Source: Pelagicoccus sp. SDUM812005 (GTDB taxonomy: Bacteria > Verrucomicrobiota > Verrucomicrobiia > Opitutales > Opitutaceae). From it: a stretch of 64,000 nucleotides of DNA. The notes below the pieces were generated by a model that was not told the DNA's origin, did not search any database, and saw only the letters and a list, made by a program, of their open reading frames with translations. Shown here one piece after another: positions 17,346-55,442 of the stretch. The stretch lies in contig NZ_JARXIA010000010.1 in NCBI RefSeq assembly GCF_031127875.1, positions 62,001-126,000 of the forward strand. Direction: 5' to 3'. Positions within the stretch are counted from its first letter, which is position 1, and each line of letters opens with the position of its first letter. Made by a program: the position numbers and the translations under genes.

Positions 17346-17365
17346 ACCTGCGCGAACGTGCAGGT
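17346..17365. promoter_or_regulatory. lux-box-like operator, site 1 (LacZ operon)
   Basis: ACCTGCGCGAACGTGCAGGT is an almost perfect 20-bp inverted repeat (arms ACCTGC..CG / CG..GCAGGT). It lies 120 bp upstream of the minus-strand GH2 start, and a CATAAT -10-like box follows in the minus direction. It is one of seven related sites in this window. Confidence 0.75.
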
Positions 17366-17472
17366 GGCTCGGACCTAGGTGAATTGGGCCTGGGAACTTA
17401 GCGCGTGGGGAGAGGGTAGATCGGTCCGGGGAGGGGACGCGATCGGCTGTTTCACAACAGGCGGAAGGCCCT

Positions 17473-18489
17473 CTAGCTCGGGCGGCGGTCGATGACGGTA
17501 CGGCGCTCGATGATGCGGGTTTCGAGGAAGACTTCAGACGCTTCCGTCTCCCGCTTTTCGATGAGCCGCAAGATATGGTCCGCGCATCGCTTGGCGATGC
17601 GGGTGTAGGGAACGTCGATGGTAGTAAGGGGGGGATCGGTGATGTCCGACCAGTTCGGAATCTCGCCAGCGATGACTGATATGTCTTCGGGAACGCGGAC
17701 TTTCATGATTCGCTGGAGCGTATTGAGAGCTAGGATACCGAGACGTTCCTGGCCGGGGAAGTAGATGGAGTCGACCTGGCGGTCCACTAGGCGAGCGAGC
17801 GCGGGAACTAGGTTTTCCGGCGCTTCGATGATTTCGAGAAGCGTGGGGTCGAACTTCTTGCCGGCGGCGGCGAGGCTTTCGGAAAAGCCCTCCACGCGGC
17901 TTTGGGTATTGTCTTGAGACGAGGGATGCACGGTGACGATTCCGGTTCGCTGGTGTCCCCGCTCGATGAGGTAGTTCGCAACCGCTCGGCCTTCGGCGAC
18001 GTGGTCCCAGCCGACGACGTGGAAGCGGTCCGACAGACTGAAGCGGTTGATTGCCACCATCGGCGTATCCTTTATGGCGCTGAGGCGTTCCAGCACGGTT
18101 TCGTCCCAGCTGAATACGAAGACGCCGTCGAATATCTGCCGGCAAAGCTGATCCACCTGGTCGTCGCTGAAAACGGTGAGGCCGATGTTTCGCGAGGAGA
18201 GTTCGCGCAGCAGCTCGAAGGTCACGTTCATGACGTAGCCACCCTTCCAGTAGTCGTTGCCGTTGGTCATGGCCAGGGCGATCTGGATCTGCCGCTTGGG
18301 CGGTCTCGGCTTCACCCCGAGGCGCCGGCTCGTAGCAAGGATCCGCTCGCGCATCTCGGAGTTAACCCCTGAAGAATTGTTCAAGGTCCGGCTCACCGCG
18401 TAAACGGAGATTCCAAGCTCGTTCGCTACATCCTGGATGGTCGGCTTGCTGGATTTCGAGCGGGTCTTTTTAGGGGCTGCTTTGGGCAT
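17473..18489 (-). CDS. LacI-family transcriptional regulator
   Basis: ATG at 18489 gives 338 residues. The [25 protein letters not shown] starts near residue 17 and is followed by a periplasmic-binding-protein-like effector domain with [10 protein letters not shown] and the usual DISVIAG strand. Such regulators bind a sugar or sugar phosphate and release an operator. The gene lies 247 bp upstream of the LacZ-type operon on the same strand and 449 bp from the divergent MFS transporter, so it could control either. A tight palindrome sits in front of it (18586-18597). The longer frame to 18618 only adds unlikely sequence. Confidence 0.88.
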
Positions 18490-18938
18490 TTTATCTACGA
18501 AAGCGTTCGGGGAGAGCTGGCCATTCCTAGCGCCACTCCGCTGTAAAAGGAGCCACGACTGCGCGAAACTGTCAAAAAAAATTGCTTGCAGGTGCAAAGA
18601 TTGCGCTGAAACCTGCAAAAGTTAGTGAAGATCGTGGTTCATTCGCTTTTCCCGATCGGGAAGCTTGCCCGTCTCGCTAGCGTTCGAATCATTCTCGCTA
18701 CCGTTGTCCTAGCGCAATTGCGAAAGCTGCATGCAATCTCGCTGTTTCGAAAGCCCCCACCCGTTTAGGCCTACCCCTTCAAGCCCTTTTTTCGATGCCC
18801 CTTACTAAGATTTCCGGTCTGTTGCCCGCTAGAGTCGCGGGAGCGTGGAGAGAAAGCTGGGGCGCGATCGCGCTCGCCGGCAATAGCGAGCTTCTAGTGG
18901 CAAGGGCGGGGACTTCGATCGTTTAGGAGAGCAGGGCC
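18490..18938. other. 449-bp divergent intergenic region
   Basis: The region separates the LacI gene (minus) from the MFS gene (plus). It holds the inverted repeat at 18586-18618 and, near the MFS start, the AGGAGAG ribosome site at 18925-18931. A 43-codon frame (18795-18926) ends inside that ribosome site but has no convincing content. No other gene was seen. Confidence 0.6.
18586..18618. promoter_or_regulatory. inverted repeat, possible LacI operator
   Basis: TTGCAGGTGCAA (18586-18597) is a 12-bp palindrome. Its first eight bases TTGCAGGT recur inverted as ACCTGCAA at 18611-18618, so two half-sites face each other 17 bp apart. It lies about 100 bp upstream of the LacI start, fitting autoregulation. 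Half-sites resemble the ACCTGC arm of the lux-box-like sites but the spacing differs. Confidence 0.45.
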
Positions 18939-53191: not shown

Positions 53192-55254
53192 TTCTTTCTC
53201 AGGTTGGAGATTGGGATTCTGAGCTCGAGGCGGGTGCCTTTTCCGCTCTGTGAGGAAATTTGCAGGTCGCCACCCATCAACTTGGCGCGAGTGCGCATGG
53301 TGGACAAGCCCCAGCCCTTGTGGTTCGGGTCTTGCTCGGAGATTCCGACTCCGTCGTCTTCGAGCTGGAGCAGCAAGGTGTTGTTCCGGCCTCGGCGAAA
53401 GGTGATTTCCAGGTGGCTGGCCTGGGCGTGCTTCACGAAATTGTGCAGGGCTTCCTTGAAGAGGAGCATGATGTTTCGCTTGTGCACGATGCTGACTATC
53501 AGGTCCGGCAGCGATTCTTCCATTTGGCAGATGACCCGGTCCTTCCCGAGGATGAAGAAGGCCCGTTCCTTGATCATGCTGCCGAGATCCTTCAGGGAGA
53601 TGGAATCCTGCTTGGTGAGCCAGACTGCTTCGCGCAGGGCCACAGCCGCTTCCTTGGCGAGCAGGCGCAGGTCTTGGGTGACCTTGTCGACTGCCGGCGA
53701 ATGGGAGTGGTTGCGCAGACGCTCCATGCCGAGGCTGAAGGCCCCGATGCTGCTGCCGACGTCGTCGTGCAGGTCGCTGGAAATTTGGTTGCGGATCTGT
53801 ACCAGCTCGCGGCTGCGCGACAAGCGGGAGCGGACGTAGAGGACGAGGGCCCAGGTGACTGCGAACAACAGGACGAGAATCAGGCTGCTGTTGATCCGGC
53901 GTTCGCGCGTGAAGGTGGCTTCGTGCAGGGCGGCTTCGGATTGGCGAAGTCGCTTTTCGAGCTGGTGACGTTCGACGAGGCCGTGCAGCCAGACTTCCGG
54001 ATGGAGGATTTCTCGGTTCGATGCGTAATTGTCGACAAGCAGCGACGGGTCGAGGCCCTGTTGTGTAATTCCGGATACGGATACGGATTTGTTTTTGGAA
54101 ACGTTGAGTCCGGAGCGAAGGATGGCGATCTCGCCCATGGCGAATATGCGGGAGGGTCCGTGTACGGGAAGTTCGCCAAAGGTCACGCGCACGTAGCGGG
54201 CGCCGGGAGAGAAGAGGGGAACGCTGAAAAAGATGTCTCCGAGCACGATGGAGCGGGTTTCGTCCCACGAGTTGATGATTTCCTTATAGATGGCGGGCTC
54301 GGCGGAAAAGTCGGAGTCTTCGAAGGCTTCGACCACGATGCTGCCGGGGTAGCCGAAATGCGGGAGTGAGATTTCCCAGGGAGGACGCGCGGGGAAGAAC
54401 TCGATGCGGCCGATGGGAGTGGGTTCGTGCAGGTCGATGGTCACTTGGATCTGCGGTTCGATTTCCTCCTGTAGTGGAATAACCGCTACATAGTCCGTGT
54501 CGGCCTTGGTCTTGGGGCCGAGCGACATGTTGTAGGGGGTCATCCGATCGTAGAGGTAGTAGGGGCTCCAGGTCGCCCGAGATTCGAAGGAGTCGCTGGT
54601 GAAGACCTTGGAGTAGGGGGCGATATTGACCGTAGTATTGAAATCGCCGTCCGAGAAGATGTACACTTCGCCCAGGGCGAAGTATTCCCAGCCGTCCTTC
54701 TCGACTCCACGGTCGACCACGATGCGAACCGCTTGGGCGGTCGTATCGATGTTGGAGATCAGAAGCGGAATGAGCTGGGTTTCCGCGTAGTCCTGCTGGG
54801 AGTAGTCGTAGGTCCTGAGGGGCTTTTCTTCTGGATCTCCTAGGATTTCGACGCGGAATCGCTTGGGGAAGCCGTAGGCGACATCCGGGCTGTAGCGCGG
54901 ATTGGACGCGGGCATAATTGCAATGGTGCGTATCCGTTTCGCGGTGTCCTTTTGCAGGAGGAAGGTGATAGACTTGTTCAGTGGCTTTCCAGTGGGATCG
55001 GCAGGAGTAATGGCGCTGTGGTAGCCGAGGTAGCCGTTCATGCTTTTCAGCTCCTTGGGAGGAAGTTGTTGGAGCTGGTTTTGGATGCCCAGAATTTGCT
55101 GCTTCAGTTCGCTGATCCGGGACGAGAGAAAGAGCTCGTCCGCCTTCAACTCTTGCAGTGGCGACGGGATCAGGAAGAGGCTGAACGCGACTGCCAAGGT
55201 GAGCTTTTGGTAGAGTCGAAAGAGGGGCGGAATGGGAAGGCGGGACGGGGACAT
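53188..55254 (-). CDS. sensor histidine kinase with periplasmic discoidin-like domains
   Basis: A 688-residue protein. The N-terminal segment (LTLAVAFSLFLIPSPL) and a second segment near residues 462-480 (ILVLLFAVTWALVLYV) bracket a periplasmic part. That part has two repeats ending FALGEVYIFSDG and FAMGEIAILRSG, typical strands of galactose-binding/discoidin-like folds. HisKA_3 has H496 in DLHDDVGSS, and HATPase has DDGVGIS. It senses an extracellular ligand, probably a saccharide, and phosphorylates the response regulator. The genes overlap by four bases. Operator site 7 lies 168 bp upstream. Confidence 0.9.
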   Translation of the reverse strand: MSPSRLPIPPLFRLYQKLTLAVAFSLFLIPSPLQELKADELFLSSRISELKQQILGIQNQLQQLPPKELKSMNGYLGYHSAITPADPTGKPLNKSITFLLQKDTAKRIRTIAIMPASNPRYSPDVAYGFPKRFRVEILGDPEEKPLRTYDYSQQDYAETQLIPLLISNIDTTAQAVRIVVDRGVEKDGWEYFALGEVYIFSDGDFNTTVNIAPYSKVFTSDSFESRATWSPYYLYDRMTPYNMSLGPKTKADTDYVAVIPLQEEIEPQIQVTIDLHEPTPIGRIEFFPARPPWEISLPHFGYPGSIVVEAFEDSDFSAEPAIYKEIINSWDETRSIVLGDIFFSVPLFSPGARYVRVTFGELPVHGPSRIFAMGEIAILRSGLNVSKNKSVSVSGITQQGLDPSLLVDNYASNREILHPEVWLHGLVERHQLEKRLRQSEAALHEATFTRERRINSSLILVLLFAVTWALVLYVRSRLSRSRELVQIRNQISSDLHDDVGSSIGAFSLGMERLRNHSHSPAVDKVTQDLRLLAKEAAVALREAVWLTKQDSISLKDLGSMIKERAFFILGKDRVICQMEESLPDLIVSIVHKRNIMLLFKEALHNFVKHAQASHLEITFRRGRNNTLLLQLEDDGVGISEQDPNHKGWGLSTMRTRAKLMGGDLQISSQSGKGTRLELRIPISNLRKK

Positions 55255-55422
55255 TATAATAATAAGGATGAAAGACCTGGAACAGCGACCTGGGAGCTCA
55301 ATGATTACCGCATGCTGGATCTTTCGGGGCCAGTCGATTTTTCGCGACCGGCAGGGAGTAGGTTCGAGGGGCTAGATTGCCAGAGAGCGGGTTTCCAAGG
55401 CGATGCTAGCCTGAGTTTCGGC

Positions 55423-55442
55423 GCCTACACGATCGTGTAGGC
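55423..55442. promoter_or_regulatory. lux-box-like operator, site 7 (two-component system / LacI), perfect palindrome
   Basis: GCCTACACGATCGTGTAGGC is a perfect 20-bp palindrome, 168 bp upstream of the kinase and 204 bp upstream of the LacI start. It probably autoregulates the signalling genes. Confidence 0.85.

Follow-up and report, generated by a model that had tools for sequence, protein, structure and literature searches.

Lux-box-like palindromes as predicted operators of a histidine kinase-response regulator pair among scattered glycan genes of Pelagicoccus

The 64,000-nucleotide stretch of the Pelagicoccus sp. SDUM812005 genome analysed here (hereafter, the window; positions 62001-126000 of contig C11 in a 6.65-Mb genome) carries genes for glycosidases, sulfatases and TonB-dependent receptors on both strands, a gene pair for a histidine kinase (HK) and a NarL/FixJ-type response regulator (RR), two LacI-family genes and six 20-bp palindromic dyads, which we propose as operators of the HK-RR pair (Table 1). 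The HK and RR genes overlap by 4 bp and are separate genes, as opposed to a hybrid two-component architecture. According to Pfam, the RR consists of a receiver domain (PF00072, 2.3e-21) and a C-terminal GerE helix-turn-helix domain (HTH; PF00196, 2e-19). The best NCBIfam matches, MadR (135.7 of 300 bits) and UhpB (73.8 of 408), are both far below the cut-off.

Table 1. Predicted operators and promoters, the regulator pair and likely target genes, in window coordinates (GH, glycoside hydrolase family)
Feature	Coordinates	Strand	Remarks
Operator 1 (predicted)	17346..17365	-	ACCTGCACGTTCGCGCAGGT on - strand; matrix 25.1; 121 bp upstream of GH2 beta-galactosidase start 17225
Operator 2 (predicted)	25551..25570	.	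ACCTACACGTTCGTGCAGGA; matrix 27.6; between divergent GH30 (-) and sulfatase (+) genes
Weak candidate	27119..27138	.	Upstream of SSS symporter gene 27313-29046; matrix 7.9 / 12.1
Operator 3 (predicted)	29065..29084	+	GCCTGCATGATCGTGCAGGC; matrix 27.9
Operator 4 (predicted)	32370..32389	+	ACCTGCTTGAACGTGCAGGC; matrix 23.8
Operator 5 (predicted)	47554..47573	+	TCCTACACAATTGTGCAGGA; matrix 25.4; upstream of TonB receptor and sulfatase
Operator 6 (predicted)	55423..55442	.	GCCTACACGATCGTGTAGGC, perfect palindrome; matrix 28.6; between HK-RR operon (-) and LacI-family gene (+)
Predicted promoter at operator 3	29084..29112	+	-35 CTGACG 29084-29089; 17-bp spacer; -10 GATAGT 29107-29112
Predicted promoter at operator 4	32389..32417	+	-35 CTGACG; 17 bp; weak -10 GAGACT (3 mismatches); before GH2 32509
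Predicted promoter at operator 5	47573..47601	+	-35 ATGACG; 17 bp; -10 GATAAT 47596-47601
NarL/FixJ-type response regulator (RR), proposed binder	52529..53191	-	Pfam Response_reg and GerE
Histidine kinase (HK)	53188..55254	-	Pfam HisKA_3 (PF07730) and HATPase_c (PF02518)
GH2 beta-galactosidase, likely target	14085..17282	-	Pfam; 65% identical orthologue beside P. mobilis dyads
GH30-family glycosidase (Glyco_hydr_30_2), likely target	23879..25537	-	Pfam
Sulfatase, likely target	25671..27104	+	Pfam; best PDB relative k-carrageenan sulfatase S1_16 9fo1
Secreted protein, likely target	29293..30654	+	Behind operator 3
GH2 glycosidase, likely target	32509..35547	+	Pfam
TonB-dependent receptor, likely target	47726..50914	+	Plug domain; 55% identical orthologue behind P. 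mobilis dyad
Sulfatase, likely co-transcribed with TonB receptor	50988..52442	+	Pfam; 77% identical orthologue behind P. mobilis TonB gene

The initial annotation of this DNA had listed seven copies of a lux-box-like motif, at coordinates that all proved exact. Six of these are strong sites, including the one at 55423, which is indeed a perfect 20-bp palindrome, and the seventh, at 27119, is weak and at chance level. When the consensus from that annotation was searched on both strands of the window with up to three mismatches, 10 rows were obtained against 0.15 expected, a number reached in none of 100 shuffles; five of the seven places were recovered, and 47554 and 27119 were not. A symmetrised matrix, built from the same six sites that it scores, gave 23.8-28.6 for 17346, 25551, 29065, 32370, 47554 and 55423, 15.3 for the next match in the window and 7.9 for 27119; the best score in 20 Markov windows was 14.6. 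A nine-site matrix, composed of the six window dyads and three dyads of Pelagicoccus mobilis (see below), was scanned over C11:2001-218096 (216 kb) and produced 11 matches scoring at least 10. The six window dyads came out on top (23.2-30.0), and the lesser matches were C11:50830 (17.1), 30637 (15.3), 27119 (12.1, rank 9 of the 11), 59693 (11.9, coding) and C11:45010 (11.5). In 300 column-permuted palindromic matrices, the mean number of matches scoring at least 11.5 was 2.1 (maximum 18), compared to 10 for the real matrix, and the best score had a median of 13.2 and a maximum of 23.8. On 948,714 bases of other loci, the nine-site matrix yielded 14 matches at or above 11.5, that is, about 3 per 216 kb. 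Thus, the six dyads are real and far above chance expectation. The number of weaker matches, 27119 among them, equals the chance level; 27119 is a weak candidate that is not separable from chance and is not established. No strong dyad was detected in the nine-site matrix scan before the glycan gene cluster 37958-47437.

The assertion that none of the sites lies in a real coding region requires a qualification. The dyads at 29065 and 47554 overlap open reading frames (ORFs) with alternative starts at 29071 and 47564; signal-peptide-like starts are present downstream, at 29293 and at 47726 or 47762, respectively, and therefore both dyads are likely to be non-coding. Five of the six strong dyads precede glycan genes or the regulatory pair, as had been stated for all the sites, and the one at 29065 precedes a gene for a secreted protein without an assigned family: the ORF 29071-30654 matched nothing in Pfam or NCBIfam at E<=0.001 and no sequence in the PDB at E<=1. 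The single-sequence model of the protein encoded by 29293-30654 has a predicted local distance difference test score (pLDDT) of 34.8; this protein possibly represents a new glycosidase family.

In the whole genome, the 18-base core of the dyad with up to two mismatches produced 14 rows, of which 11 correspond to the six window sites and the remaining three are single-strand matches on contigs C31, C42 and C85. A sequence model of the nine sites, with 150 of 1862 first-look candidates scored, gave 16 rows at E<=10: 11 at E<=1, every one of them from the six window sites, and five with E values of 1.99-9.18. The genome-wide test proposed in the initial annotation was passed, with five of the six sites preceding genes of glycan type or the regulatory pair. 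Two weaker, intergenic dyads, C11:45010 and C11:50830 (L083 3010 and 8830), lie to the left of the window and occur at chance-level number; they precede, respectively, an operon encoding three sulfatases together with a GH43-like protein (the latter below the Pfam cut-off) and an alpha-L-fucosidase gene, and only their location is suggestive.

Orthologues of the HK were searched in 141 genomes, its own included, and the only close one outside its own genome (53%) was found in P. mobilis (G003), a member of the same genus. Three dyads in this genome, C90:137678, 141193 and 141228, are located within about 7 kb upstream of the HK gene and score 23.5-25.3 with the six-site matrix and 27.4-27.9 with the nine-site matrix, which contains them; the P. 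mobilis stretch L089 carries the same dyads. One of the three lies upstream of a gene for a TonB receptor 55% identical to the 47564 ORF, followed by a sulfatase gene (77% identical to 50988), and two lie between a sulfatase gene and a GH2 gene (65% identical to 14085), directly behind which the HK and RR are encoded. The conservation expected by the initial annotation is thus found, in one species, upstream of the orthologues of the TonB receptor and beta-galactosidase genes. Within 100 kb of this contig, the RR is matched at 79% over 208 residues and the HK at 53% over 648, both near the dyads; the RR is 76% identical to its P. mobilis orthologue, and the recognition helix SAHTVSFHLRNIYKKFDV is identical in both. 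The six other congeners (G001, G002 and G004-G007) gave a single row at E<=1, a partial one (positions 5-19, E 0.718, in G004), and their best kinase matches are far weaker, at 28% where the match spans most of the length and otherwise limited to the kinase part.

At five of the nine dyads of Pelagicoccus, namely 29065, 32370 and 47554 in the window and 137678 and 141193 in P. mobilis, the final base also serves as the first base of a -35-like element, [AC]TGACG, which is followed after 17 bp by a -10 element (GATAGT, GAGACT, GATAAT, GATACT and CATACT, respectively); such an abutting promoter is present at three of the six window dyads. This fixed geometry would place the dyad at about -54 to -35, abutting the -35 element, as would be expected for a class-II activator; class-II activation may thus be implied.

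All nine Pelagicoccus dyads contain CT-N12-AG, so that the proposed likeness to the lux box holds. This is the consensus of the 20-bp lux-box dyad as given in the accessible text of PMC4074388 (for the context of lux boxes, see the accessible part of PMC6478669). The recognition helix of the RR, TVSFHLRNIYKKF, resembles that of RhlR, TVNFHHKNIQKKF; the NarL helix reads TVKVHVKHMLKKM. A PDB search with the helix region gave 13 matches at E<=10, headed by four RhlR entries (E 0.00056-0.021) and with FixJ in fifth place (0.15); SdiA, VpsT and CviR come after it. The lux-box likeness of the dyads may therefore stem from a similar recognition helix. As already noted in the initial annotation, a receptor for acyl-homoserine lactones (AHL) is not apparent: the Autoind_bind domain (PF03472) was found neither among the Pfam matches of the RR nor in the genome, in a search that detected the control in E. 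coli. Autoind_synth also had no match in the genome, though the positive control for that search gave none either.

We consider it probable that the dyads are operators of the RR encoded at 52529-53191, acting with its partner HK. The features that point to this role are the dyads themselves, their co-presence with the orthologous pair and target genes in P. mobilis and the promoter register. From these features, we infer binding, phosphorylation, a ligand, activation and autoregulation, in the following predicted scheme. The HK would sense a periplasmic glycan, probably a fragment of a sulfated galactan, via tandem CBM32/discoidin-like domains, and would phosphorylate the RR, a dimer of which would bind the 20-bp dyad through the GerE domain with its RhlR-like helix. 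At promoters such as those at 29065, 32370 and 47554, where the -35 element begins with the last base of the dyad, the RR would contact RNA polymerase in the manner of a class-II activator, turning on the glycosidases, the sulfatases and the TonB receptor. The pair would be autoregulated, through the dyad at 55423 in the window and, in P. mobilis, through the placement of HK and RR directly behind the GH2 gene. Co-control of scattered genes, as put forward in the initial annotation, would thereby extend to glycosidases, sulfatases and the TonB receptor; among the transporters, the symporter gene at 27313 has only the weak site 27119.

The dyads could alternatively be operators of a LacI-family protein of the window (17473-18618 or 55548-56723) functioning as a glycan-responsive repressor. 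LacI proteins often control sugar genes, and the two genes, both assigned by Pfam, adjoin the dyads 17346 and 55423. Moreover, and counting against the assignment to the RR, P. mobilis also encodes LacI-family relatives, 28% identical to 55548 and 22% identical to 17473, about 40 kb and 20 kb from its dyads, respectively, so that the HK and RR are the closest, not the sole, regulators common to both species. However, these relatives are far more distant than those of the HK (53%) and RR (79%) and are not encoded beside the dyads, which favours the HK-RR pair over LacI. In addition, gene 55548 has a perfect palindrome of its own, GTTTACAGTGTAAAC, in its promoter at 55518 (55518-55532), the only match in the window at up to two mismatches and possibly the operator of this LacI-family protein itself, and the dyads have a W|W centre, unlike LacI operators, which usually have a central CG. 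Control by a LacI-family protein thus appears unlikely.

Control of the promoters by the extracytoplasmic function (ECF) sigma/FecR system encoded at 35697-37342 has very little to recommend it: this sigma/anti-sigma pair does adjoin genes for a TonB receptor and glycosidases, but neither the ECF sigma factor nor FecR has a match better than E 0.1 in the 100 kb around the P. mobilis dyads, the -35 and -10 elements look sigma-70-like, and there is no strong dyad before the TonB receptor gene at 37958. An equally slim chance is given to the dyads being a dispersed repeat or a structural element that has no regulatory role; palindromes do occur in repeats and terminators, but these dyads sit upstream of genes, are followed in five of nine cases by the same TGACG promoter and, among the candidates scored, are found nowhere else in the genome at E<=1. 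True lux boxes, under cell-density control by an AHL receptor encoded elsewhere, would explain the CT-N12-AG consensus and the 20-bp size but can be virtually dismissed, given that the genome lacks a detectable Autoind_bind domain and that such a receptor would leave the co-occurrence with the HK and RR unexplained.

In the proposed assignment of the dyads to the HK-RR pair, the signal would be perceived by the sensor part of the HK, in which Pfam detected no domain at E<=1. Residues 1-470 were modelled with 14 homologues (mean pLDDT 84). Among the best 50 of the 756 Foldseek matches of this model, many are CBM32/discoidin proteins, such as CBM32-1/2 of ZmpB (E 4.8e-5), DDR1 and neuropilin; the list is headed by 8ayr, an entry for an Akkermansia glycosidase, and by the arabinofuranosyltransferase AftD. 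For the whole sensor, the query template modelling (TM) score is about 0.2 and the root-mean-square deviation about 20 Å, that is, domains rather than the whole are matched, and single CBM32 domains reach a target TM score of about 0.55. The sensor is accordingly predicted from the model to consist of tandem CBM32/discoidin-like domains. The sulfatases among the likely targets are relatives of carrageenan and GalNAc sulfatases. Because the likely targets include these relatives, a beta-galactosidase and GH30 and GH2 enzymes, we would guess that the substrate is a sulfated galactan. The region 35697-47437 encodes, in addition to the ECF sigma and FecR-type anti-sigma factors, a TonB receptor that is extended at length at its N-terminus and, behind it, GH92 and GH29 proteins with an MFS-type transporter between them; having no strong dyad, it is perhaps a second, separate glycan switch.

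A genome scan with the kinase identified 14 loci, in P. mobilis, Kiritimatiellales, Pontiella, Spartobacteria, Chthoniobacter, Prosthecobacter, Verrucomicrobiaceae, unplaced Verrucomicrobia and an Akkermansia bin. A motif-free search for dyads covered the window and 52 stretches around HK-RR pairs, several of which cover one locus. In L103, whose genome belongs to the same order, the pair is surrounded by three intergenic dyads equal in size to those of Pelagicoccus (TGTCACATG..., TGTCACACG... and CGTCGCACG...); two lie upstream of genes for alpha-L-rhamnosidases (8717 and 13156) and one, at 10146, upstream of a gene for a PEP-CTERM-like protein. In seven further loci (group C: L093, L095, L096, L097, L099, L100 and L102, of which L096, L099 and L100 are near-identical), defined post hoc by a pattern that came from L093 in the motif-free search, a dyad TGTC[CA]CGCG..CGCGTGGCA precedes a PSCyt-type gene, a label based on Pfam for three of the seven targets, with the others alike at the N-terminus. 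This dyad is located at most 5 bp from the stop codon of the regulator gene in six loci and, in L095, before a second PSCyt-type gene. In all seven loci, the operator is followed by a -35 element, 17 bp and a -10-like element that ends 5-8 nt before the ATG; given this short distance, leaderless mRNAs are predicted for group C. The regulators of L103 and group C contain the helix V[SD]TYLRR, versus VSFHLRN in Pelagicoccus. The half-site may follow the helix, NCCT going with TVSFHLRN (Pelagicoccus) and TGTC with V[SD]TYLRR (L103, Verrucomicrobiaceae/Akkermansia), in a post hoc comparison of three groups. Over 26 dyad edges from the three groups, a descriptive count from which the near-identical group-C copies L099_8595, L100_6764 and L100_4203 were omitted, TGA starts at offset 0 in 11 cases, compared to 0-2 at other offsets, and a -10 element (at most two mismatches) occurs at 22 bp in nine, with 4 at the next best offset.

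Other candidates were discarded. The dyad pairs from the motif-free search at L063, L065, L072, L081, L101, L107, L113, L118 and other stretches were judged unconvincing, and matrix or core matches at L067, L068, L069, L070 and L104 were dropped as lying inside coding genes. Pattern matches with up to two mismatches in 112 of the 141 genomes were taken as GC-driven background, and no conclusion was based on pattern counts by themselves. A composite of the operator and TGAC, searched with at most one mismatch in 387 genomes of the phylum, was found in the window genome and at one place in G398, where it lies in ORFs that by eye are transposase-like. The group-C composite was found in none of the 387 genomes, a sample whose overlap with the genomes of the kinase loci is not established. 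A different repeated palindrome, around TGAAACATG.TTCA, is present at another HK-RR locus (L113, 13118 and 17377), and the repeated palindrome GGCAAYGCTCCGTCRTTGCC, perhaps a repetitive extragenic palindromic (REP)-like element, occurs on two P. mobilis contigs (L065, 14485 and 17332; L118, 3434).

Several observations weigh against the proposed operators or against their wider distribution. Among the 52 stretches, only P. mobilis and L103 gave convincing dyad families, and conservation rests on one species pair. Seven stretches encoding regulators with FHL-type helices (L066-L070, L090 and L091) contain no such dyad outside ORFs (best score 8.0), and therefore an FHL helix alone is no predictor of the site; over the whole HTH, response regulators such as NarL rank level with RhlR. 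An abutting TGACG promoter is lacking at four of the nine dyads (17346, 25551 and 55423 in the window, C90:141228 in P. mobilis), and the register was first noticed on the very sites on which it was counted. The next match in P. mobilis after those on C90, G003:C127:6220 (L078 6220-6239), is a near-perfect dyad that scores 23.5, like the strong sites, and falls within a coding gene that belongs to an ExbB/ExbD-like operon. Finally, the model scans scored 150 of more than 1000 candidates per genome, and the sites from which the model was built match by construction. We put at slightly below even the chance of an HK-RR family of Verrucomicrobiota and Kiritimatiellales with CBM32/discoidin sensors that would control glycan genes via 20-bp dyads abutting the -35 element, with half-sites following the helix and leaderless transcripts in group C, and that would share one helix-DNA code with AHL receptors or have re-evolved it; the estimate was lowered because of the seven FHL-type stretches that lack the NCCT dyad.

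The system combines traits of several known ones. With LuxR and RhlR, it shares the 20-bp CT-N12-AG dyad and a GerE domain with a similar helix, and lux boxes are likewise found near the -35 element, but the RR has a receiver and no AHL-binding domain. The domain architecture, a HisKA_3 kinase with a NarL/FixJ regulator, is that of NarXL, UhpBA and MadRS, from which the pair differs in its lux-box-like operator (NarL operators are heptamers), predicted CBM32-like sensor and local glycan regulon. In the hybrid two-component systems of Bacteroidota polysaccharide utilization loci, a periplasmic glycan sensor controls glycosidases and a TonB receptor; here, by contrast, the HK and RR are separate, the regulator is of the GerE type, and the operons are scattered on both strands. 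For Pontiella agarivorans, an HK (PF07730, PF02518) and a response regulator near GH, sulfatase and TonB transporter genes have been reported, with substrate sensing suggested, and no operator or promoter is described in the passages of that article considered here (PMC10880615). In a verrucomicrobium, the alginate genes are not in a canonical locus, according to the available part of PMC13274419. None of the papers listed in our literature search was seen to describe such an operator in Verrucomicrobiota, judging from titles, abstract openings or the passages considered, which is weak evidence of newness as subscription papers were mostly outside its reach.

Sulfated algal polysaccharides are degraded by Verrucomicrobiota, whose glycan genes often lie dispersed instead of forming classical loci. 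Reading a regulator together with its operator and promoter register from the sequence would allow regulons and substrates to be assigned genome by genome. If the proposed role of the dyads is correct, the lux-box code would not be private to quorum sensing.

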